Assembly: GCA_022824405.1 (NCBI GenBank)
Contig: JAJDZZ010000012.1
Span: forward strand, 1 to 64,000
Length of the DNA: 64,000 nt
Source: Opitutales bacterium
GTDB taxonomy: Bacteria > Verrucomicrobiota > Verrucomicrobiia > Opitutales > UBA2995
Direction of reading: 5' to 3'
The notes below the pieces were generated by a model. That model was not told where the DNA came from, made no database searches, and saw only the letters and a program-made list of their open reading frames with translations. The position numbers and the translations under genes were made by a program. Within the stretch, counting starts at the first letter, position 1; every line of letters starts with the position of its first letter. Below are positions 2,086 to 63,729 of this stretch, piece by piece.

Positions 2086-3651
2086 ATGGCTATGAGCCGT
2101 TTTAAATCCCTTACCTTGCTCCTTCTGTCGATTGGATGGTGTTTCCAAAGCGGTTTGGCCGACGATGGCTCGAAGGAGGAAGGTTCCGATGAGGGAAACG
2201 AGCTGAAATCCCTCGAGGTCCGGGATATTTCCAAACTTTCCAAGCGGGACCTGATCCCACCGGTTCAGGGGTTTGTCCTTCCCGTGGATTCAGCCTTGCA
2301 GGTGGCGGTAATACCGGTGAGAAGCCAAATTGGCAAACCCAGCCTCTACGTGCTGCGGAGGAGTATGAAGGAGGCCATCGCCCAGGGCGCCCACATGGTC
2401 ATCCTCGACATGGATACCCCGGGGGGCCAGTTGGATTCCACGCTGGAAATGATGGAGATTCTGCACAATTTCAACGGGAACACCGTAACCTTTGTCAACG
2501 ATGAGGCCATCTCGGCCGGCGCGATTATCTCCTCCGTGACGGATCACATCTATTTTTCCCCGCTGGGGATCATGGGAGCGGCCGCCGCGGTGGCCGCGAC
2601 CGGGCAGGAAATTCCCGATACCATGCGCCATAAAATCCAGAGTTACCTGGATGCCCGCATTCGTTCCTACGCCCAGAACAAACGCTACCGTAGCGAAGTC
2701 CTTAAAGCCATGATGGATAAGGACTACGAACTGACCATCGAAAATACCGTCATCAAGAATAAGGACGCGTTGCTCTCGCTTACCGCGGCGGAGGCCATCG
2801 TTCCGTTCGGGGAGCCCCCTCAACCCCTGCTGGCAGTCGGAATCGCCCAATCCATCGATGAGATTCTGGAGTATGGTTTTGGCGCGACCGATGCCGTGGT
2901 CGAGAAATATGAAGTATCCTGGTCCGAGGAACTGGCATCATGGATTGAGATGATCACCCCGGTTCTTTTTGGCATCGGCATCATCATGTTGATAGTGGAA
3001 ATCAAAACACCGAGTTTCGGATTGTTGGGGATAATCGGGCTGGGATTGATATTGTTTGCCTTTTTTGGCCACACCGTTGCCGGCCTGGCCGGGTACGAGG
3101 CCCTGTTGTTGCTGTTGGGAGGGGCCGTCCTGATCGCGGTGGAGCTGTTTTTTCTACCGGGGACACTGGTCTTCGGATTTCTGGGGATCCTTTGTGTCAT
3201 GGGCGCCATGGTTTGGTCGCTGGCGGATGTCTGGCCGGTCGCTCCCGAGCCTGGAGCGGAGCCCTTGGACTGGAGGATCAACCCGGATTCCCTGGTGGCG
3301 GGGGTATACAACCTGTTTTGGAGCCTGGTTATTGCGGTGGGGGGCTTGGCCTTGATTTGGCGCTTCCTCCCGAAATCGAAATTTCTGCGCCGCGTCATGG
3401 TCGAGTCCACCGTGGCCGATCCCAGTCCGGTCACCGGGGTAGGGGGGAGCGTCATCGCTGGAGGCGGTCTGCCGGACGTGGGCAGTGTGGGGACTGTGAC
3501 GCGGGATCTCCATCCTCTCGGGGAGGTAGTCATCGAAGGACAGCTCTACGAAGCCAGCACCGCCGTCGGCACTTTGCGAAAAGGCGATCCCGTTGTTGTA
3601 ACCGGTTATAAAAGTTATTCGCTATTGGTGGAGAAAAGGACCCCGTCATAA
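2086..3651 (+). CDS. Long-form NfeD, membrane-bound ClpP-class serine protease
   Basis: 521 aa. A signal peptide (about residues 1-25) is followed by a ClpP-like protease domain (about 70-270) with DMDTPGGQLDS and EAISAGAII, placing the likely catalytic Ser at 143; Lys183 is a candidate for the dyad lysine. Four or five membrane segments (about 285-380) and a C-terminal NfeD OB-fold domain (about 460-520) follow. Long NfeD proteins sit beside stomatin/flotillin genes and are thought to cleave partner membrane proteins. The stop overlaps the next start by one base (TAATG), so it is translationally coupled to the short NfeD and FloA. Confidence 0.88.
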   Translation: MAMSRFKSLTLLLLSIGWCFQSGLADDGSKEEGSDEGNELKSLEVRDISKLSKRDLIPPVQGFVLPVDSALQVAVIPVRSQIGKPSLYVLRRSMKEAIAQGAHMVILDMDTPGGQLDSTLEMMEILHNFNGNTVTFVNDEAISAGAIISSVTDHIYFSPLGIMGAAAAVAATGQEIPDTMRHKIQSYLDARIRSYAQNKRYRSEVLKAMMDKDYELTIENTVIKNKDALLSLTAAEAIVPFGEPPQPLLAVGIAQSIDEILEYGFGATDAVVEKYEVSWSEELASWIEMITPVLFGIGIIMLIVEIKTPSFGLLGIIGLGLILFAFFGHTVAGLAGYEALLLLLGGAVLIAVELFFLPGTLVFGFLGILCVMGAMVWSLADVWPVAPEPGAEPLDWRINPDSLVAGVYNLFWSLVIAVGGLALIWRFLPKSKFLRRVMVESTVADPSPVTGVGGSVIAGGGLPDVGSVGTVTRDLHPLGEVVIEGQLYEASTAVGTLRKGDPVVVTGYKSYSLLVEKRTPS

Positions 3652-4112
3652 TGACCTACGTAGTTGCCTTGATTCTGTTGGCCTTGTTGCTCTTCTTTCT
3701 GGAAATTTTTGCCCCGGGAGGGATTTTGGGCATAATGGGAGCGATCGCTTTGGTCGTCGCGGCCATTCTCGCCTACGAGGATTGGGGTATGTTGGGGTCT
3801 ACCGCCATTCTTCTGGGAGGCGCACTGGCCGGGATCCTGCTCTTTTTCCTGGAAATCCGGCTTATTGCCCGCTCGCCCTTTGGAAAACAGTTTCAGCACC
3901 ACCACACTCAAAAGGCGCAAACCAAACCGGTGGGGAGAGACGATATGGTGGGGAAGCGAGGCAGGGTGTTGACCACGATGGCTCCTTCCGGCAAGGTCAT
4001 GATCGACAATAAATCTCTTGAAGCCGCTTCGGAGGGAGGGCTCATTAGGAAGGATGCCACCGTTGTTGTCATCCGATCCGAACATTTAAAACTCATCGTT
4101 AAAGAAATATGA
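3651..4112 (+). CDS. Short NfeD-family membrane protein
   Basis: 153 aa, of which the first 70 residues form two or three membrane segments and the last 70 the NfeD OB-fold domain ([20 protein letters not shown]). It lacks the protease domain of its neighbour. Short NfeD proteins are membrane partners of flotillin/stomatin proteins. It sits between long NfeD and FloA with overlaps of one and four bases, which points to one mRNA and one membrane assembly. Confidence 0.85.
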
Positions 4113-5149
4113 TACCAGTATTCGCAGTAGATTTACCCTTTATCGTAGCCATAATCCTCATCGTCTTTGGGGTAATTGTGGCCTTCATCTTCCTGTCCTT
4201 TATCAGCGTTTGGTTGAAGGCCTTGTCCTCCGGGGCGCCGGTTGGGCTGGTTAACCTCGTGTTCATGCGGTTTCTCAGGAAGCTGCCCCATGGACTTATT
4301 GTGGAAGCCCGCATTACCGCCGTGAAAGCGGGCATCGATCTTCCCATCGACCAGCTCGAGACGCATTACATGGCCGGAGGCGACATCATGCTGACCACCT
4401 TGGCCCTGATCAACGCCCAGAAAGCCGGGTTGCCCTTGGACTGGGATCAGGCCACTGTAATCGACCTCGCGACCAAGGGAACGGAAAAATCGGTGGTGGA
4501 AGCGGTGCGGACTTCCATCAACCCGAAAGTGATCGACTGCCCCTCCACCGACCAGGGCAAGTCCACTATCGATGGCGTAGCCAAGGACGGTATCCAGGTT
4601 AAGGCCCGCGCCCGGGTGACGGTGCGCAGTAATTTGGAACGCTACGTCGGCAGCGCCCAGGAAGAAACCATTATCGCCCGGGTGGGAGAGGGTATCGTGA
4701 CCACCATCGGGTCTGCCGAAACCTATAAATACGTGTTGGAAAATCCCGATACCATTTCCCAGAACGTGCTGAACCGCGGCCTCGACGTGGGAACCGCTTT
4801 TGAAATCCTGTCCATCGACATAGCCGACGTGGACGTCGGGGAAAATGTGGGGGCTCAACTTCAGACGGCCCAGGCCGAGGCCAATAAGAAAGTGGCTCAG
4901 GCCCAGGCGGAAATTCGGCGTGCCGCCGCCGTGGCGCAAGAGCAGGAAATGACGGCCAAGGTGGAAGAAATGAATGCCAAGCTGGTGGAAGCCCAGGCTC
5001 AGGTGCCCATGGCTATTGCCGAGGCTTTCCGCAGTGGAAACCTGGGCATTATGGATTATTACCGCTTGGAAAATATCCAATCCGATACCTCCATGAGGCG
5101 CTCCATCTCCGATAGCGACGAAAAAGGCCAGCCGAACCCGAACGAATAA
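4109..5149 (+). CDS. floA: Flotillin-like protein FloA
   Basis: 346 aa, close to the 320-340 aa of FloA/YqfA proteins. A hydrophobic N-terminal anchor (about residues 4-30) is followed by the SPFH/PHB region ([27 protein letters not shown]) and a C-terminal helical stretch rich in Gln, Ala and Glu (about 245-310) that resembles the flotillin coiled coil. FloA organises membrane microdomains in bacteria. The ATG overlaps the upstream NfeD stop (ATGA), giving the NfeD-FloA pairing known from many phyla. Confidence 0.93.
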
Positions 5150-10374: not shown

Positions 10375-11007
10375 ATGATAGTCGAGGACACCGAAAACAA
10401 CAACATGGAAAAACCCCCCGAGGGAGAGATTGCCCAAAACGCGGCCGGGGCCGGGGAAGGCGATGGGAAGACCTCCACCGCAACCGTGGAACCCCCCGCC
10501 GAAGAGCTGTTGCGGAAATACCGCCAGGAGAGAGAAGAGTTGTACGAAAAAATTTTGCGGGCTGCGGCCGAATTTGAAAACTTTCGCAAGCGCAGTCTTC
10601 GGGAAAAGGAGGAACTTCGCAAATATGCCATTTCCGGGTTGATCGAAGATCTTCTGCCTGCGCTGGATAACCTGGAATTAGGGCTGAGAGCGGCGGAAAC
10701 ACATCCCGAAGCAAAGCCGATTGCCGAGGGATTCCGCATGGTTGCGGGCCAATTGGTATCCATTCTGAAAAACAACGGATTGGAAACGGTGGAACCCGAG
10801 GGAGAGGAATTCGATCCCAATTTCCATGAAAGTGTCGGATCTCAACCGAGCGATGAAGTTGAAGATCACAAAATCCTTCAGGTTGTGCGCAAAGGTTACG
10901 TCTTGAACGGCAGAATTCTCAGGGCTGCCAACGTCATAGTCTCCACGGGTCCGGCTGCGGAAGAAAAGACCGGGGACGATAGCGAGACCGGGAAGAAGGA
11001 GCAATAG
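10375..11007 (+). CDS. grpE: Nucleotide exchange factor GrpE
   Basis: 210 aa. GrpE drives ADP release from DnaK. The acidic, disordered N-terminus (about 1-45) leads into a long dimerisation helix (YRQEREELYEKILRAAAEFENFRKR split over residues 44-68) and the C-terminal beta domain (NFHESVGSQPSDEVEDHKI). The ATG at 10375 is used here; the ATG at 10405 is an equally possible start and fits better with the candidate heat-shock promoter. dnaJ begins two bases after the stop, so the two are co-transcribed; dnaK is not in the window. Confidence 0.9.
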   Translation: MIVEDTENNNMEKPPEGEIAQNAAGAGEGDGKTSTATVEPPAEELLRKYRQEREELYEKILRAAAEFENFRKRSLREKEELRKYAISGLIEDLLPALDNLELGLRAAETHPEAKPIAEGFRMVAGQLVSILKNNGLETVEPEGEEFDPNFHESVGSQPSDEVEDHKILQVVRKGYVLNGRILRAANVIVSTGPAAEEKTGDDSETGKKEQ

Positions 11008-15281: not shown

Positions 15282-18041
15282 TTACCGGCCGAAATCGTAC
15301 TCGAGGTTAATCGGCTCCAGTGGTTTCGGCTGAGGAACGGTTTTCGGGATGAAGGGGTTCAATGGATTGAGGGCCAACTGCCACTGAGGTTTGGTTAAAG
15401 TTCCCGTCAGGTTGACCTCCGCAATGTGGCTGAGAGGATCCAGTATGGGCATGACCAGTTGGGAAAGTACGGGAATTCCGGCCTCCCGCAATAAAAACAC
15501 CCGGACCTGAAAATCGAGAAGGGAACTGTCCGGATAGTAATCGCCTTCCCCCTCCAGCCTTGCCGTATTTCCGGTCATTACCAGATCCGGAAAGGTAATT
15601 TTGCCTCCATCCCATTGAAAGGAAGTGGAGGCATCGCCCAACTTCAGTTTGGTAAAGAACAATAAACTGGACAAGGGACCAAACAGGGGAATTTCGGCCA
15701 GGGTGCCCCCCCGAACCTCCAGATTGCCTTGGGCGAAAACCCTGTCCAATCCGAACCCAACCGGGGAAATGCCGGAAACCTGGATATCCAGAACCCCCTC
15801 GTAATCTTTTTCGCCCCTTCCCTGGCTCGGTTGATCCGCGCCGCTTTCGAGGCGGAATTGCCTCACCTTTTTCAGGGCTTGGCCGAGATTGGCTCCGGCC
15901 AACTCCAAGTCATAGAGCAGGAAGGCGTTCTCGTCCTGGCGGATATAGGAGGCGCTGCCCGTGCCCGATCCTTCGGCAAACTGAAATGCGATCTCATCCA
16001 AGTAGACGTCGCCCCTGTCGTAGCGACACCTCGCCTCCAGGCTGTCGACAGGGAACCCGTAGTAGGACAGGGGAGCGTCGGTGGAAATCCCGATATCCAA
16101 CTCCTGCCAAGGGGTTGGCTCGGAAAAGTTGAATTCTCCCCGCACCGTCAGGGTGGGGTGTCTTTCCCAGGTGTAGGGTTCAAGGATTTTCCGGCCTTCC
16201 TCTCCGAAGAGCGCCAGGGACGGTTTCAGGTCGAGATTGGAGGTGGCGTCGACGCGGATGTAATGCACGTCGCCGCCCTTCAATTCGCACTGGAATTGCC
16301 CCGAGGCCGAGCCTTCCGGCCTATGCGCCTTCAGTTCGAAAACGTCGATATAATTGGGGCGTATAAACATTTTCGAGGCAATCCGGTCGAAGCGCATGCC
16401 GTCCACCTCCACCTTCTCGCCGGCGGCGTACCCGTGAAGCGTCAGGCGTTTTTTGTAATAAAAGGAATTGCGGACGGCCAAGTCGATATAGGGAGGTCGA
16501 TCGACGATTTTCAGGTGTTGGAAGGTCTCCGTCCACCAGCTTCCCCACCAGGCGTTGACATCCTGCGGTCGAAAATTGCCCGCCATGGAAAACCTGAAAT
16601 ACTTCTCCCGCAGGTCCTGCCGGAAAGCGCATCGGAGGTCGTTGCCATGGCCGCCCACGTCGATTTGGTGCAAATCCAGCCGGGTTCCCTTCAGGTGGCC
16701 GCGCACACGGGCCCATTGGAAAGGAGCCTTTATCATCTCTACATCGCGCGTCTCCAGACGAAAACTTGCGGCCAAACCATCGAGGTTCCCGGGGTAACTG
16801 AAATCGATGTCGAAATAGGCGGGTTGATGCTGTTTCGACAAACGCAGCCGCCAAAGGCGATCGAATTCCGGTCGGGTGATGATCGCTTCGCCATTGAAAT
16901 GGCCGCGAACGGACCCTCTCGCCGCCATGGAGTTCAGATCGGCCCGTAAATGGGAGGTCAAAACTCCCTGAAGCGTTTCCGCGCCGATCGTGCCCTCGAC
17001 CGTTCCCCCGTCCAGGAGCGATCCGGATATACCCAGGTTGTCGAATGGGGTGTCCCTATAGGTCAAGGTGGAGGCGGTGGCTTCGAACCGAATGGGAAAG
17101 GGAGATTTCAAGTCCTCGATGCTGCCGTTTTTGAGGGCTGCGATGGAAACGTTCTTCAAACGGATTTCGGGATTTTCCATCGTTACGGTTCGGGCCCCGA
17201 TGCGAATCGGTTCCAAAATGCGAAAATCAGGCGCCAATTGAAAGGCCCCTGTGTGGGTGAGACCTTCGGCGGTGGGCCATGAGGTCAAAGAAAAGCGCGG
17301 CGCCGTGAGCCGGGAGGACACCGTGAATTGCCGGTTCCCGGGAGTGGCGAATTCAAGTTCCAGATGGGGGGCATGCAGGGCGTTCAGGGTATCGTAGGCT
17401 TCCATGGCCAAGCCGGACAGCTTGAGGTATTCCGGATAGAGGTCGGGTTTATCGGGCGCCCCTTTCCCGGCCGCCGACAAGTGGGGAACCAAGCCGGTAA
17501 GGTCACCGCTGGCCGATAATTGGAGGTGCCGGAAATTTCCGGTCAAAAAGGGCATGCTCCATCCACCCCAGTTCCTCCTGAGGGCGAAGTGCAGATCCTG
17601 CACCAGGTAGTCGGTGGCGCCCGATGGCGACACCATGGCAGGGCAGTACAAGGTGGCGTTGGAGACCCTGACCTTATCGATGGCCATCCGGCCCAGCATC
17701 AGGGACGGAATATTAAACTGCAGGTAGACCAGATCGGCCTCGAGGAAGGGTTCATCCGATCTGATGAAGGACAAGGCCATCTTGTGCCCCAATAGGTTGC
17801 CCTTGAAATCCATGGTGACTTTTTCGGATTGGAGATTCAGCCCCTGCCTTTCCAACTGCCGCTCGATTCGTTCCATCAGCCGCGGCGGAATGGGGATTTC
17901 CTCATAGAACATGCTCAACACCGCCACGGACGAAAGTAACATGAAGAAAAGGGCTAGGCCCAACAACGCCAAGTTGTGGCAGCCCATGAGGAACCGCTCG
18001 ACAAAGGATCGGTTCTTTTTTTTCAGGTAGGACATGGGCAT
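15282..18041 (-). CDS. AsmA-like inner-membrane-anchored envelope protein
   Basis: 919 aa. One N-terminal transmembrane helix (about residues 22-46) is followed by a very long beta-rich periplasmic region, a layout shared by AsmA/TamB/YhdP-type proteins that move lipids between membranes. The C-terminal part (LEGEGDYYPDSSLLDFQVRVF; DPLSHIAEVNLTGTLTKPQW) matches AsmA-like C-terminal regions. A TAAGGA ribosome-binding site precedes the ATG. It is the last gene of the co-directional run containing the Gld-type exporter; the precise lipid substrate is unknown. Confidence 0.72.
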   Translation of the reverse strand: MPMSYLKKKNRSFVERFLMGCHNLALLGLALFFMLLSSVAVLSMFYEEIPIPPRLMERIERQLERQGLNLQSEKVTMDFKGNLLGHKMALSFIRSDEPFLEADLVYLQFNIPSLMLGRMAIDKVRVSNATLYCPAMVSPSGATDYLVQDLHFALRRNWGGWSMPFLTGNFRHLQLSASGDLTGLVPHLSAAGKGAPDKPDLYPEYLKLSGLAMEAYDTLNALHAPHLELEFATPGNRQFTVSSRLTAPRFSLTSWPTAEGLTHTGAFQLAPDFRILEPIRIGARTVTMENPEIRLKNVSIAALKNGSIEDLKSPFPIRFEATASTLTYRDTPFDNLGISGSLLDGGTVEGTIGAETLQGVLTSHLRADLNSMAARGSVRGHFNGEAIITRPEFDRLWRLRLSKQHQPAYFDIDFSYPGNLDGLAASFRLETRDVEMIKAPFQWARVRGHLKGTRLDLHQIDVGGHGNDLRCAFRQDLREKYFRFSMAGNFRPQDVNAWWGSWWTETFQHLKIVDRPPYIDLAVRNSFYYKKRLTLHGYAAGEKVEVDGMRFDRIASKMFIRPNYIDVFELKAHRPEGSASGQFQCELKGGDVHYIRVDATSNLDLKPSLALFGEEGRKILEPYTWERHPTLTVRGEFNFSEPTPWQELDIGISTDAPLSYYGFPVDSLEARCRYDRGDVYLDEIAFQFAEGSGTGSASYIRQDENAFLLYDLELAGANLGQALKKVRQFRLESGADQPSQGRGEKDYEGVLDIQVSGISPVGFGLDRVFAQGNLEVRGGTLAEIPLFGPLSSLLFFTKLKLGDASTSFQWDGGKITFPDLVMTGNTARLEGEGDYYPDSSLLDFQVRVFLLREAGIPVLSQLVMPILDPLSHIAEVNLTGTLTKPQWQLALNPLNPFIPKTVPQPKPLEPINLEYDFGR

Positions 18042-54138: not shown

Positions 54139-54947
54139 TTTTCACCCGATCCATGCTCCCGTATTTGTCCCTTTGTCTAATAATTTTGACTGGTCTCGGC
54201 CCTGGGCCCGTTTACTCGGAGAGCGCCACTCCCGAGGAAATGGGACTGAAAATCGCCCGGGAATCCCATGCCCGCGAGGATGGTTTTGGCAACTATACGG
54301 CCCGACAAACCATGGCGCTGCGCAATAAAAACGGGCAGGAGAGCCGCCGTCAGCTCCGGGTAAAGGTTCTGGAGGTCCCCGAGGATGGAGACAAGAGCCT
54401 GTTTGTGTTCGATGAACCGCGCGATGTCCGGGGGACGGCCCTTCTCATTCACGCGCATCGGGAAAGCGCGGACGATCAATGGCTCTATCTGCCTGCTCTG
54501 AAGCGGGTCAAACGCATCAGTTCGTCGAATCGCTCCGGCTCCTTCATGGGAAGCGAATTTGCCTATGAGGATCTCACCCCCCAGGCCGTAGAGAAATTTA
54601 CCTACCGTTACCTGCGCGAAGAGCCTTGCGGGGGCGGGACCTGCACGGTCACCGAACGCGTTCCGGTCGACAGGAAATCAGGCTATAGCCGCCAAGTGGT
54701 CTGGCGCGACAAAGACGAACTTCGGGTGTGGAAAGTGGAGTACTACGACCGCAAGGATTCCCATCTGAAGACGCTGACCCTGGGGAATTATGAGCAGTTC
54801 CTGGATCGTTACTGGCGCGCCGGCGAGATGACCATGGAAAACCATCTGACCGGGAAAAGCACCGTTCTGACCTGGACGGATTTTCAGTTCCGCACGGATC
54901 TTGATGACCGGGATTTCACCCAAACCGGGTTGAGGCGAGTTCGTTGA
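54135..54947 (+). CDS. LolA-like outer-membrane lipoprotein-sorting family protein
   Basis: 270 aa. A signal peptide (cleaved near GPVYSESA) is followed by a beta-rich domain of the COG2834 type: YTARQTMALRNKNGQ, DQWLYLPALKRVKRISSSN, GSFMGSEFAYEDL and the cysteine pair CGGGTC. Such proteins have a hydrophobic groove and accompany RND exporters, probably carrying lipid across the periplasm. The ATG overlaps the RND stop (ATGA) with a GGAGGA site, and its stop overlaps the barrel start. Confidence 0.85.
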   Translation: MIFTRSMLPYLSLCLIILTGLGPGPVYSESATPEEMGLKIARESHAREDGFGNYTARQTMALRNKNGQESRRQLRVKVLEVPEDGDKSLFVFDEPRDVRGTALLIHAHRESADDQWLYLPALKRVKRISSSNRSGSFMGSEFAYEDLTPQAVEKFTYRYLREEPCGGGTCTVTERVPVDRKSGYSRQVVWRDKDELRVWKVEYYDRKDSHLKTLTLGNYEQFLDRYWRAGEMTMENHLTGKSTVLTWTDFQFRTDLDDRDFTQTGLRRVR

Positions 54948-56200
54948 TGATACGCCGTTCCGTTCTTCGCTACGCTCTGTCCGGTGCCATCTGGATATTG
55001 TCCACGGTTTCCGGTTTCGTTGCAGGGGCCGGTAGCAAGATCGACCACCAGATTTCCGGAAGCTTCAGCATCGAAAGCCAATGGTTTCCGGAAAGCGCCG
55101 CTTATCCCGACCAGCGGGGGCATGCCACCGGGTTTGTCATGGAACCCGAGATCTACCTGGATAGCATCGAGGGGTGGAGCTTCATTTTGGCGCCGTTCCT
55201 TCGCTACGACAGCGCGGACCTGCACCGTACCCATGCCGACCTGCGTGAAGCCTATCTGCTGCTATTTGGCGACGTCGGCAATGATGAATGGGAATTGCGA
55301 CTGGGCATCGACCGGGTCTTCTGGGGGGTCGCTGAATCGCGCCACCTGGTCAATATCGTCAATCAGATCGACCTCGTCGAACATCCCTACAAAGAGTTGA
55401 AGCTGGGCCAACCCATGGCCCATCTCACCTGGTCGGGAGATTGGGGCATGGCGGAATTATTTGGCCTGACCTATCACCGTCCGCGCACCTTTCCCGGCCG
55501 TTCCGGACGCCTGCGCCTACCGCTCGTGGTGGACAATGACCAAGTCTCCTATGAGAGCGCCGCAAAGCAGTGGCACATGGACCTGGCTGCCCGATACAGC
55601 CACAGTTTCGGACTTTTCGATATTGGAATAAGCGCATTCGACGGTACCAGCCGGGAGCCTTTCCTGTTTCCCGGCACGGATTTCACAGGCGCGCCGATCC
55701 TGGCTCCTCACTACGAACAGATCCGCCAGGTTGGGCTCGATACCCAAATGACGGCCGGTTCCTGGTTGTTCAAGCTCGAGGCTATTCAGCGTCTCGATGC
55801 CCGAGACCGTCTCGGCAGAAAAGTGGATTATACCGCTTCCGTTTTTGGCGGTGAATACACGTTTTACTCCGTATTGGGCTCGACGGTCGATATCAGCCTT
55901 CTCGGTGAATGGAATTACGACGGGCGGGGCCATAATGCGACCAATGTCTTTCAGAAGGATCTCTTCCTGGCCGCGCGGTTTGCTCTCAACGATGTCCAAA
56001 GCACCGAGATTCTCGCCAGTGTTCTGGGAGACGCGGACAATTCTTCTCGTATACTGGCTTTCGAATTGAACCGGCGCCTCTCTGACCAGTGGTCTCTGAA
56101 TCTGGAGGCAATCGCTTTTCTCGATATCGATCCAGCGGACATCTCCTACGAGATACGGCGCGACAGCTTTATCGATCTGAACCTGATTTATAATTTCTAG
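54947..56200 (+). CDS. Outer-membrane beta-barrel protein of the RND export operon
   Basis: About 417 aa. A signal peptide (about 1-28) is followed by alternating amphipathic strands and a terminal aromatic residue (LIYNF), the outer-membrane insertion signal. A family name is not certain; it resembles DUF1302-like barrels often found beside RND/LolA-like gene pairs. The start is the ATG at 54947, sharing one base with the previous stop (TGATG). It is the outer-membrane component suggested for the export route. Confidence 0.78.
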   Translation: MIRRSVLRYALSGAIWILSTVSGFVAGAGSKIDHQISGSFSIESQWFPESAAYPDQRGHATGFVMEPEIYLDSIEGWSFILAPFLRYDSADLHRTHADLREAYLLLFGDVGNDEWELRLGIDRVFWGVAESRHLVNIVNQIDLVEHPYKELKLGQPMAHLTWSGDWGMAELFGLTYHRPRTFPGRSGRLRLPLVVDNDQVSYESAAKQWHMDLAARYSHSFGLFDIGISAFDGTSREPFLFPGTDFTGAPILAPHYEQIRQVGLDTQMTAGSWLFKLEAIQRLDARDRLGRKVDYTASVFGGEYTFYSVLGSTVDISLLGEWNYDGRGHNATNVFQKDLFLAARFALNDVQSTEILASVLGDADNSSRILAFELNRRLSDQWSLNLEAIAFLDIDPADISYEIRRDSFIDLNLIYNF

Positions 56201-58685: not shown

Positions 58686-60308
<1,623 letters not shown>

Positions 60309-60521: not shown

Positions 60522-61331
60522 ATGCTCTATGATCCGGAAAAATTGTTGTTGGTAGCCGGGCCCTGTTCCCTGGAATCGATGGGGACTTGTCGACCCGTGG
60601 CCGAGCGTTTGGCTGAACTCGCCCAAAGGTGGCCGGACTTGAACATCGTGTTCAAAGGATCGTTCGATAAGGCGAATCGCACCTCCATTGAGGGAGCGCG
60701 CGGGACAGGTCTGGATGAGGGGTTGGCAATTTTGGCCCAAATAAAGGCCTCGTTCGGGTTTCCCATCTTAACCGATTTCCATGAATCCCACCAGGTGACG
60801 GCGGTATCGGAAGTGGTCGACGTATTGCAGATTCCCGCCCTGTTATGCCGGCAGACCGACCTGCTGCTGGCCGCGGCAAAAAGCGGGAAAGCGGTCAACG
60901 TGAAAAAGGGCCAATTCACCGCTCCTTCCGACATGACCCATGTGGCGGCCAAGCTGCAAAAAGGAAAGGCGGCGGAAATTTGGCTCACCGAGAGGGGTTC
61001 GACCTTCGGTTACCACAACCTGGTGGTTGACATGCGTGGGTTTTCCATCATGCGGCAAACGGGTCATCCGGTTGTTTTCGATGCCACACATAGCGTGCAG
61101 TTACCCAGCGCAGGCTCCGGTCGGAGCGACGGCCAGCGCGAATTCATCCTCCCATTGGGACGAGCCGCTCTGGCCGCTGGAGCGAATGGAATATTTCTCG
61201 AGACCCACCCCGCCCCGGATCGCGCCATATCCGATGGCCCCAGCATGGTGCCCTTATCGGAGTTGGCCGGGATGGTGGAATCTTTCTTGCAAGTCTGGCG
61301 TCTTTCCAAATCCTTGGCCGCTGAGAAATAA
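60522..61331 (+). CDS. kdsA: 3-deoxy-8-phosphooctulonate (Kdo-8-P) synthase
   Basis: 269 aa. It condenses phosphoenolpyruvate with arabinose-5-phosphate for lipopolysaccharide core synthesis. Motifs: [42 protein letters not shown]. The Cys in AGPC marks the metal-dependent class (the E. coli enzyme has Asn there). The gene ends 18 bases before the lipoyl-KASIII fusion, so the two are probably one transcript. Confidence 0.95.
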
Positions 61332-61349: not shown

Positions 61350-62939
61350 ATGGAGAAATTTTTGGCCTTGATTCCCGTCCCCTCCATGGGAGCGACTGTC
61401 CATGAGCTTACCGTGATCGATCTCCACGTGGAAACGGGCGACGCGGTCGCCAAAGGGCAAACCTGTGCGGAATTCGAAAGCGATAAGTCCGCTTTCGATT
61501 TTGAGGCTCCCTGCGACGGGGTCATAAAAAATATTCTGGTGCGGGCCGGAGATATCGTAGATGCCAATGCCCCGTTTTTGGAAATCGAAACCGCCGATGA
61601 GACGCAAAAGCATCTCAAGATCGAGGGAGCGGTTCGTCCGGCTCCAACCTCCCAAGCCTGGACCGGGATGAGTCCAGCCGCGCCCGCCCCAGTCGGGCCG
61701 ATAACGTCCCCGGCTCCATCCCCCCCCCCTCGACCTGTCCTGAAGCCGGCCGGGGGGCGGAATGGTATCAAATGGACCCCCAAGGCTCTGCGCATCGCGC
61801 GTGAAGCGGGCTTCGATCCCTCGCAGCTAACCTCAATCGATGCAACCGGGCCGGGAGGGCGCGTCTCCGGGGATGACGTGCAAGCCTACATTAACAGCCA
61901 TTCCCAATCGATGACCGAGGCCGCTGCCACCATAGCGCCTGTTTCCGACAACAGCCGACAGACCGTATGTGTTGCCGGTATCGGTTATGCCGTTCCCGGA
62001 CGGGTTCGGACCAATGAGGAGATCCTGGAAAGATTTCCCGACAAATCGGCCGACGAGGTCGTAAAAACTACCGGAATTTCATCCCGTTACATCGCGGCGG
62101 AGGGGGAGGACGTGACTACCTACGCCTCCCGGGCAAGCGAGCATGCCCTGGCCATGGCGGGCATGGACGTTGCCAAAATAGATGGCATTATTCTGGCCAC
62201 CATTATTCCGGATCAACCCGTTCCCAGCGCCGCCAGCGCCTTGGCCAAGCATTTGGGCATTCCTCACGCCTTGGCTTTCGACTTGAATGCGGCTTGTTCC
62301 GGTTGGTTATACGCTTTGGAAATCGGCCGCACTTTCATTTTGTCCGGTAGCGCCCAAAATCTCCTGGTCGTGACGGCCGAATTATTGTCGCGCATTACCA
62401 ATTACGAAGACTACAGCACTGCCTTCCTCTTTGGCGATGGAGCCGGGGCCGCTGTTCTCACTGACAGCCCGGGCGGGACCCGGTTGCACCGTATGGGCCT
62501 AAGTGGCGACGCCACCCAATATGAAGCCATTCAACGATTGGGCGGCGGGGCCAAAAAACCCATAGCCCATTCCGGTTGCGACGTGTCGGATTTTTACCTC
62601 AGCATGAACGGGGCCGCCGTTTTCAAGTATGCCGTGGTCGCTTTTGCCGACATGATCGAACAGACTCTGCAACGAGAAAACCTCGCCGTGGAGGACGTGT
62701 CCTGGGTTGTTCCGCACCAGGCCAATGAGCGCATTCTACGGGCGGTTTCAAAAAGGGTGGGCATTTCCTACGAACGTTTCGTCGTCACCATCGGCAAGTA
62801 TGGAAATACCTCCGCCGCCTCGGTTTCCATGGCCTTGGGTTGGGCCGCGGAAGAGGAAATCTTCCAGAAAGGGGATAAAATCATCTTTTGTTCCGTGGGA
62901 GCGGGCCTCACCTACGCGGGCGGGCTTTTGGTCTGGTAA
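61350..62939 (+). CDS. E2-type lipoyl domain and subunit-binding domain fused to ketoacyl-ACP synthase III
   Basis: 529 aa. Residues 1-82 are a lipoyl domain with Lys46 in FESDKSAFDFEAP; a Pro/Ala-rich hinge (about 98-135) follows; residues 142-181 are a peripheral-subunit-binding domain (TPKALRIAREAGFD ... GPGGRVSGDDV). Residues about 205-529 are a complete KAS III with Cys316 (LNAACSGWLYAL), His456 (PHQANERIL) and Asn486 (GKYGNTSAAS). The order is that of a 2-oxoacid dehydrogenase E2 in which the acyltransferase core is replaced by FabH. It may pass acyl groups from dihydrolipoyl arms directly to malonyl-ACP; this is inference. It overlaps the convergent rsmE by 28 bases. Confidence 0.92.
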   Translation: MEKFLALIPVPSMGATVHELTVIDLHVETGDAVAKGQTCAEFESDKSAFDFEAPCDGVIKNILVRAGDIVDANAPFLEIETADETQKHLKIEGAVRPAPTSQAWTGMSPAAPAPVGPITSPAPSPPPRPVLKPAGGRNGIKWTPKALRIAREAGFDPSQLTSIDATGPGGRVSGDDVQAYINSHSQSMTEAAATIAPVSDNSRQTVCVAGIGYAVPGRVRTNEEILERFPDKSADEVVKTTGISSRYIAAEGEDVTTYASRASEHALAMAGMDVAKIDGIILATIIPDQPVPSAASALAKHLGIPHALAFDLNAACSGWLYALEIGRTFILSGSAQNLLVVTAELLSRITNYEDYSTAFLFGDGAGAAVLTDSPGGTRLHRMGLSGDATQYEAIQRLGGGAKKPIAHSGCDVSDFYLSMNGAAVFKYAVVAFADMIEQTLQRENLAVEDVSWVVPHQANERILRAVSKRVGISYERFVVTIGKYGNTSAASVSMALGWAAEEEIFQKGDKIIFCSVGAGLTYAGGLLVW

Positions 62940-63652
62940 TCCAGGAATTGGGTGGCCAGAGCCAGGGCGGAAACGGCCGCCGTTTCAGAGCGCAGGATAT
63001 GATCCCCCAGGGAAACCCCTACGGCTCCGCTATTGTGCAGAAGTTCGTACTCCTCTGTGGAAAAATCTCCCTCCGGTCCGATGATCAACGCGCAGGTGGC
63101 CGGGCCGGGATCGAGGTTTTGCCAGGGAGTGGGCCTTTCCCGCAGACTGGCCAACAGGGTCAAATCAAAATCGAGGTTTGCGAGAAAACGTTCCAGCGGA
63201 ACCGGGGCGGATAGATGTGGGAGCCACCCATTTCCGCTTTGCTTGCAGGCTTCGATACACTGCTGCTTCCATTTGTCCAATTTTCGGGGAAGGTTCTTCA
63301 ACCGAACCTGGATTCTTCGGGATATGAGAGGCTGAATCCTGAAGGCGCCCAGTTCCGTGGCCCGGCGCACGATGGAGTCCATGGTTTTTCCTTTGGTCAC
63401 GGCCTGGGCCAGGGTGATCTTTGTCCCCTTCCGGACCAGCCGGGCGCAGGTAAGTTTTTTCAGGCGGGAATTGCGATTGTCCGCCTCCACAATCCGGCAG
63501 GCGCATTCCATCCCCTTCCCGTCGAAGGCGATAGCTTCATCCCCGGAACGGGCACGGTTGGTTGTCACCAGATGGCGCGATTCAAAAGCATCGAGCTGAA
63601 AGGTTTCCCCCTCCGCGGCCAGGGAAGGGCAATAGGTACGGAAACGAGGCAT
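62912..63652 (-). CDS. rsmE: 16S rRNA (uracil-1498-N3)-methyltransferase
   Basis: 246 aa from the ATG at 63652 (MPRFRTYCPS), the usual start for the family. The PUA-like N-terminus (ESRHLVTTNRARSGDEAIAFDG) precedes the SPOUT domain with TKGKTMDSIVRRATELG and the knot segments IIGPEGDFSTEEYELL and SLGDHILRSETAAVSAL. It methylates 16S rRNA. Its last 28 bases overlap the convergent fusion gene. Confidence 0.93.
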   Translation of the reverse strand: MPRFRTYCPSLAAEGETFQLDAFESRHLVTTNRARSGDEAIAFDGKGMECACRIVEADNRNSRLKKLTCARLVRKGTKITLAQAVTKGKTMDSIVRRATELGAFRIQPLISRRIQVRLKNLPRKLDKWKQQCIEACKQSGNGWLPHLSAPVPLERFLANLDFDLTLLASLRERPTPWQNLDPGPATCALIIGPEGDFSTEEYELLHNSGAVGVSLGDHILRSETAAVSALALATQFLDYQTKSPPA

Positions 63653-63729
63653 GCCACACCCTGGCTTCGTTTCACCCCAGATGTCCAGCCCAGCCACGTC
63701 CCATTTATCCAACACAACCGGAATTTACC

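Follow-up and report, generated by a model that had tools for sequence, protein, structure and literature searches.

A lipoyl-PSBD-FabH fusion protein of Opitutales that may start fatty acid synthesis from a lipoyl arm without acyl-CoA

In bacteria, the passage of acyl groups from 2-oxo acid oxidation into the start of fatty acid synthesis is regarded as always going through coenzyme A. In priming of the Bacillus type, a branched-chain 2-oxo acid dehydrogenase (BCKDH) produces a branched acyl-CoA, which FabH then takes into fatty acid synthesis. The E2 proteins of such complexes (PDH, BCKDH) carry an N-terminal lipoyl domain, a Pro/Ala-rich swinging linker and a peripheral-subunit-binding domain (PSBD), followed by the 2-oxoacid_dh core (PF00198) that makes acyl-CoA. 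The closest described systems that avoid CoA are NapB/NapD of naphthyridinomycin and QncN/QncL of quinocarcin, in which an ACP receives its two-carbon starter from a dehydrogenase-type E1 acting with a lipoyl-type E2 domain. They belong to secondary metabolism, are not known to have a KAS III fusion, and the acyl group is moved to ACP, not condensed by the enzyme that bears the arm. A literature search for systems joining a lipoyl domain to FabH or another ketosynthase, conducted mostly outside subscription papers, found nothing relevant. Here we describe a gene of an Opitutales bacterium that has the first half of an E2 and, in place of its core, a KAS III.

The window, meaning the whole stretch of 64,000 nucleotides analyzed (the start of contig JAJDZZ010000012.1), contains an uninterrupted frame on the forward strand (61350..62939) that encodes 529 amino acids plus a stop and has full-length homologues; the features given below for this gene are all on the forward strand. 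An earlier note on this DNA had described it as the N-terminal half of an E2 joined in one frame to a FabH with an intact triad, and Pfam and NCBIfam searches confirmed both parts. The lipoyl domain (residues 8-79; 61371..61586) scored 55.9 bits to Biotin_lipoyl, PF00364 (cut-off 22.1), and includes the predicted lipoylation site Lys46 (61485..61487) within the sequence ESDKS, which fits the DK[A/S] lysine motif of E2 lipoyl domains. It is followed by a Pro/Ala-rich linker of the swinging-arm type (residues about 86-140; 61605..61769), which is variable in alignments, the PSBD (E3_binding, PF02817, 32.4 bits against a cut-off of 23.7; residues 142-178; 61773..61883), and a second flexible linker (residues about 183-203; 61896..61958). 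The remainder (residues 204-529; 61959..62936) is a KAS III domain that passed the cut-offs of both NF006829 (318.8 bits; cut-off 249) and TIGR00747, the NCBIfam fabH model (294.4; cut-off 292.1), with Pfam scores of 87 and 101 bits to ACP_syn_III and ACP_syn_III_C. The NCBIfam E2 models covered mainly residues 8 to about 198 of the protein, while the FabH models covered 204-529. The protein resembles E2 in the identity and order of its N-terminal parts; unlike E2, it gave no Pfam match to the CAT-like acyltransferase core, PF00198.

An AF2 model, for which 33 sequences were used, reached a mean pLDDT of 78.8. In it the lipoyl domain folds into a barrel that has residues 44-47, and hence Lys46, at a hairpin turn; the PSBD helices and a KAS III fold follow, and the parts are connected by two low-confidence linkers with pLDDT below 50 (101-137 and 187-200). 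The top-ranked Foldseek structures for this model were FabHs, with a target TM of about 0.9. ESDKS was present in 80 of 80 related loci. This context is that of lipoyl domains, while biotin domains typically have MKM, and the E2 models scored far above the biotin-carrier models; judged from the sequence, biotin on Lys46 is not favored. Compared with the nearest relative, dN/dS was 0.09 for the lipoyl domain and 0.06 for FabH, with the PSBD evolving faster (0.37).

Scanning named genomes (for the most part Opitutales, Opitutaceae, Pelagicoccus, strain DG1235, IMCC26134 and similar) gave at least 254 relatives, from which a subset of 80 loci was fetched. Full-length homologues were found in the same genus (91% identity), in the same family (71-68%) and in other families of the order. 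The earlier note had called for a search of the domain order lipoyl-PSBD-FabH across genomes, and in all 80 loci a lipoyl-PSBD precedes the same subfamily of FabH, here called FabH-II. The two parts are fused as one gene in 53 loci and exist as adjacent or overlapping genes in 27, several of the split pairs having a 4-base ATGA overlap. A single open frame runs from the lipoyl domain into FabH in 52 of the 80, one of which (L046) has a frameshift further on. Since the full-length gene was found again in other genomes at 91-58% identity, the fusion is not an assembly join, and a chance or assembly join is ruled out by the 80 loci and the low dN/dS. The related explanation that the gene is a sequencing or assembly artefact, or is decaying, could draw on the frameshift in L046 and on an in-frame TAA in the fused relative L039, but the frame is open in some 50 other fetched loci and in tens of independent genomes, and with the low dN/dS we give this explanation practically no weight. 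The TAA in L039 (G047:C65, about 10721-10723) is single, the fusion being otherwise intact, and represents either a sequencing error or a recent loss.

The FabH-II sequences of the 80 loci are 64-77% identical to that of the window, while ordinary FabHs are about 35-40% identical. The distribution of FabH-II was bimodal across 273 genomes of the order; 32 genomes (families f1, f13 and f24) had matches at E <1e-140, and the best match in the others was about 5e-78. Among 388 genomes sampled from the phylum, none outside Opitutales had FabH-II. A tree built from 101 FabHs placed FabH-II in one clade (support 100/100) and the 27 split forms in a single clade nested within the fused ones (100/98), which indicates that within FabH-II the fusion is older and that fission occurred once in this sample. 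The opposite order, with the split loci as the ancestral state, is contradicted by the tree, and fission is the simpler reading. One genome carries, in addition to the usual fusion, a second and more divergent lipoyl-PSBD-FabH fusion with 54% identity (L236; G235:C66:12458-13978). Three MAGs labeled as Sumerlaeota or Akkermansia muciniphila (L063, L084 and L089) also carry the fusion; their FabHs lie close to the Opitutaceae type in the tree, that of L063 is identical to that of L066, and the records are probably mislabeled or misbinned. Carriers with complete or isolate genomes include Verrucomicrobia bacterium IMCC26134 (L070) and strains of Pelagicoccus (L047, L061).

The usual gene order across the 80 loci, with names assigned by NCBIfam, is pyrG-kdsA-(lipoyl-PSBD-FabH)-rsmE. 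In the window, pyrG (58701..60308, forward strand; TIGR00337, 780 bits) and kdsA (60522..61331, forward strand; TIGR01362, 353 bits) are the syntenic upstream neighbors, and rsmE (62912..63715, reverse strand; TIGR00046, 140 bits) converges on the fusion from downstream. Elsewhere in the window, positions 2086-5149 encode an NfeD-like protein followed by the flotillin FloA (PF12127, 470 bits), a usual bacterial pair, and two long reading frames (15282-18041, 919 aa, and 54944-56200, 418 aa) had no Pfam match at E <1e-10.

The CoA contacts of FabH are known from the E. coli enzyme, where Thr28 forms a hydrogen bond to the adenine, Trp32 and Arg151 stack on it, and Arg36 contacts the phosphopantetheine (PMC4606726). 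The CoA-binding roles of these four residues are also stated in PMC9040583, which in addition names R36 as a likely ACP contact, so that loss of R36 is not purely a CoA signal. Our alignment contained 79 FabH-II domains, 21 housekeeping FabHs and the E. coli enzyme (its sequence checked against PDB 1hn9), and we examined 14 further housekeeping FabHs from genomes that have FabH-II or a standalone lipoyl-PSBD. All four residues are replaced in 79 of 79 FabH-II and kept in all 35 ordinary Verrucomicrobia FabHs (21 + 14), the additional 14 having T, W, R and R without exception. Position 28 is R, K or M in FabH-II. Trp32, which is W in 35/35 ordinary FabHs, is replaced by Glu236 (62055..62057; E in 79/79 FabH-II); Arg36 (R in 35/35) by Thr240 (62067..62069; L, V, I or T in 79/79); and Arg151 (R in 35/35) by Tyr355 (62412..62414), a position that is H in 69 of the 79 and never R. 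At the acyl-pocket gate, where E. coli has Phe87, the protein has Val291 (62220..62222), V in 77/79 FabH-II while 17 of the 21 ordinary FabHs have F. The CoA-site residues are lost in the second fusion paralogue (G235:C66) as well.

In contrast to these losses, the catalytic residues Cys316 (62295..62297), His456 (62715..62717) and Asn486 (62805..62807) are where the earlier note had placed them; they align with E. coli Cys112, His244 and Asn274 and are invariant in 79/79 FabH-II. Phe157, Phe213 and Asn247 are also kept, as are the basic residues on the ACP side: R249 in 79/79, K214 and K256 in 76/79 (R in the rest), and R or K at the position of K257 in 79/79. The domain is thus like FabH in its fold, triad, ACP-side basic patch and family scores, and unlike it in the four replaced residues, the Val at the acyl gate, the N-terminal lipoyl-PSBD and its separate clade. 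As a pattern of residues this would fit an enzyme whose acyl donor is no longer CoA, lipoate not being singled out by the pattern alone. FabH has an acetyl-CoA:ACP transacylase side activity, and the main alternative is that the KAS III domain is an acyltransferase, which would pick up the acyl group at lipoamide and hand it to ACP (or a different thiol), yielding acyl-ACP with no C-C bond formed. The retained ACP-side residues and the position of KAS III where the acyltransferase core sat would suit such an enzyme, but the His and Asn of decarboxylative condensation are invariant in all 79 and the general FabH fold is kept; we regard this alternative as unlikely.

In order to identify possible partners, we considered the host genome (G000), which is 96% complete in 92 contigs. 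Its one PSBD is that of the fusion, and its only strong Biotin_lipoyl matches are the fusion and a domain beside accC (C35:14582). No match to the E2 core (PF00198) was found in this 96% complete genome; given its completeness and its 92 contigs, an E2 could be missing from view. The genome encodes a fused E1alpha-beta of 686 aa (G000:C61:38745-40802), a lipoamide dehydrogenase, Lpd (G000:C15:58017-59396), and adjacent lipB and lipA, although LipA, LipB and Lpd may alternatively serve glycine cleavage. Apart from the fused E1, the search for E1 gave just one weak transketolase/DXS-like match and no E1 of PDH or OGDH type, and with the E2 core also missing, acetyl-CoA is probably made another way. 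The earlier note had asked whether genomes with the fusion lack a separate fabH or a branched-chain E2. For the host genome the second part was upheld, no E2 core having been found, and the first was rejected, as a separate, ordinary CoA-type fabH adjoins plsX.

These data also bear on the idea that the fusion is an ordinary acyl-CoA-dependent FabH, tethered through lipoyl-PSBD to a dehydrogenase complex so that acyl-CoA made nearby is channeled to it. The FabH fold is standard and most relatives also have E2-like proteins of normal length, as this idea would expect, but it is very unlikely given that the CoA-binding residues are absent from 79/79 FabH-II and that no E2 core was found in the host genome from which acyl-CoA could come.

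The fused E1 and the lipoyl-PSBD-FabH fusion are not neighbors in the host genome. The E1 gene is near kdsC and lptB (by NCBIfam) and rpoN (by eye) and the fusion adjoins kdsA, a faint hint that the two surroundings might be pieces of one ancestral kds/lpt neighborhood. Of the 32 FabH-II genomes of the order, 31 have the fused E1 (E <1e-120), versus 15 of the 241 others (Fisher p about 2e-28, a value uncorrected for shared ancestry), the one exception, G007, being 75% complete. Of the 15 E1-bearing genomes lacking FabH-II, two (G006 and G097) are fragmented assemblies. The other 13 belong to family f13 (Opitutaceae-family) and have the lipoyl-PSBD as a standalone protein (about 151-165 aa), encoded at the same locus with kdsA and rsmE on either side, in a search that covered 23 genomes. 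Two f13 genomes without the fused E1 (G040 and G227) also lack the lipoyl-PSBD. In the 13 genomes (L194-L204, L207 and L208; G069, G082, G153, G206, G143, G195, G247, G255, G259, G271, G180, G267 and G201) the lipoyl-PSBD is an E2 without any catalytic core, and since FabH-II is absent the arm must pass its acyl group to something else.

It might be argued from these 13 genomes, and from the 27 loci in which the two parts are separate genes, that FabH-II is fed by acyl-ACP or some donor other than CoA, and that the lipoyl-PSBD, left over from a docking or regulatory role, has no more than an operon and a frame in common with it. Binding of acyl-ACP is known among KAS III enzymes, for example in FabH C112Q with acyl-ACP (PDB 9ka6). 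We judge this quite unlikely: the invariant ESDKS and the dN/dS of the lipoyl domain point to strong constraint on Lys46 and on the fold of this domain, the split loci are a single derived clade inside the fused ones, and the E1 follows the module.

The fused E1 matched E1_dh (114 bits), Transket_pyr (107) and Transketolase_C (100). Its alpha half scored 85 bits to human BCKDH, 48 to human PDH, 42 to P. putida BCKDH and 60 to the bacterial PDH 1w85/3duf; its beta half scored 217 bits to the 3duf PDH and 206 to P. putida BCKDH. The alpha half is closer to the human BCKDH than to the human PDH, but taken together these scores are mixed. The fused E1 is retained as a third E1 by relatives that already have one of PDH type and one of OGDH size, and by elimination branched-chain 2-oxo acids are the likeliest substrate, with acetyl as the other candidate for the acyl group. 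In another genome of the same genus (L151:10184-12532; G001:C236), E1alpha and E1beta are two separate genes, and after them comes a lipoyl domain on its own (about 75-84 aa), without PSBD or E2 core; an apparent sugar transport cluster adjoins them.

Opitutales produce iso and anteiso acids, and so do relatives in other families that lack the system. Lacunisphaera limnophila has 48.6% iso-C15:0 (PMC5303756), and a genome that is apparently of this species (G227) has none of the three parts (E1, lipoyl-PSBD, FabH-II), so that making iso acids does not require the system in this case. The notion that branched fatty acids are confined to carriers is rejected, as non-carriers make them too.

The earlier note had proposed that E1 charges the lipoyl arm and that FabH receives the acyl group directly from it, with no part played by CoA. 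At the level of sequence this proposal is supported, three predictions that could have failed having held: that E1, Lpd, LipA and LipB would be present without an E2 core, that one particular fused E1 would track the module across the order, and that FabH would lack the CoA-adenine site but keep its triad and ACP patch. We infer the following route, from lipoylation through docking and direct transfer to the branched-chain substrate and the product. The fused E1alpha-beta would decarboxylate a 2-oxo acid, probably of the branched-chain kind, and reductively acylate the lipoate on Lys46, with the PSBD docking E1 and/or Lpd. The arm would then swing to the FabH active site, where Cys316 would accept the acyl group and, with His456 and Asn486, condensation with malonyl-ACP would give a beta-ketoacyl-ACP, starting fatty acid synthesis; Lpd would re-oxidize the arm. 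No acyl-CoA would be formed. The proposed overall chemistry, from 2-oxo acid to beta-ketoacyl-ACP, is like that of Bacillus-type priming, and differs in having no free acyl-CoA step and in the covalent link between E2 and FabH. The protein is probably, on this sequence evidence, a 2-oxo acid dehydrogenase E2 in which KAS III stands in place of the acyltransferase core, giving fatty acid synthesis an arm-fed start without acyl-CoA.

The family scores would suggest the label 'beta-ketoacyl-ACP synthase III', which alone would hide the fusion and wrongly imply the use of acetyl-CoA. The fusion offers a testable single-protein system for transfer from a lipoyl arm to a ketosynthase, and the carriers with isolate or complete genomes allow the question to be posed in an isolate. 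If the biochemistry holds, this is possibly a new kind of complex. On balance we favor the view that, across much of the order, a 2-oxo acid dehydrogenase complex ends in a C-C bond, with a KAS III that has lost its CoA site starting the synthesis of fatty acids, or of another ACP-based lipid, without acyl-CoA. If true, the CoA step would be removed and the supply of branched-chain (or other) 2-oxo acids would be coupled directly to lipid synthesis.
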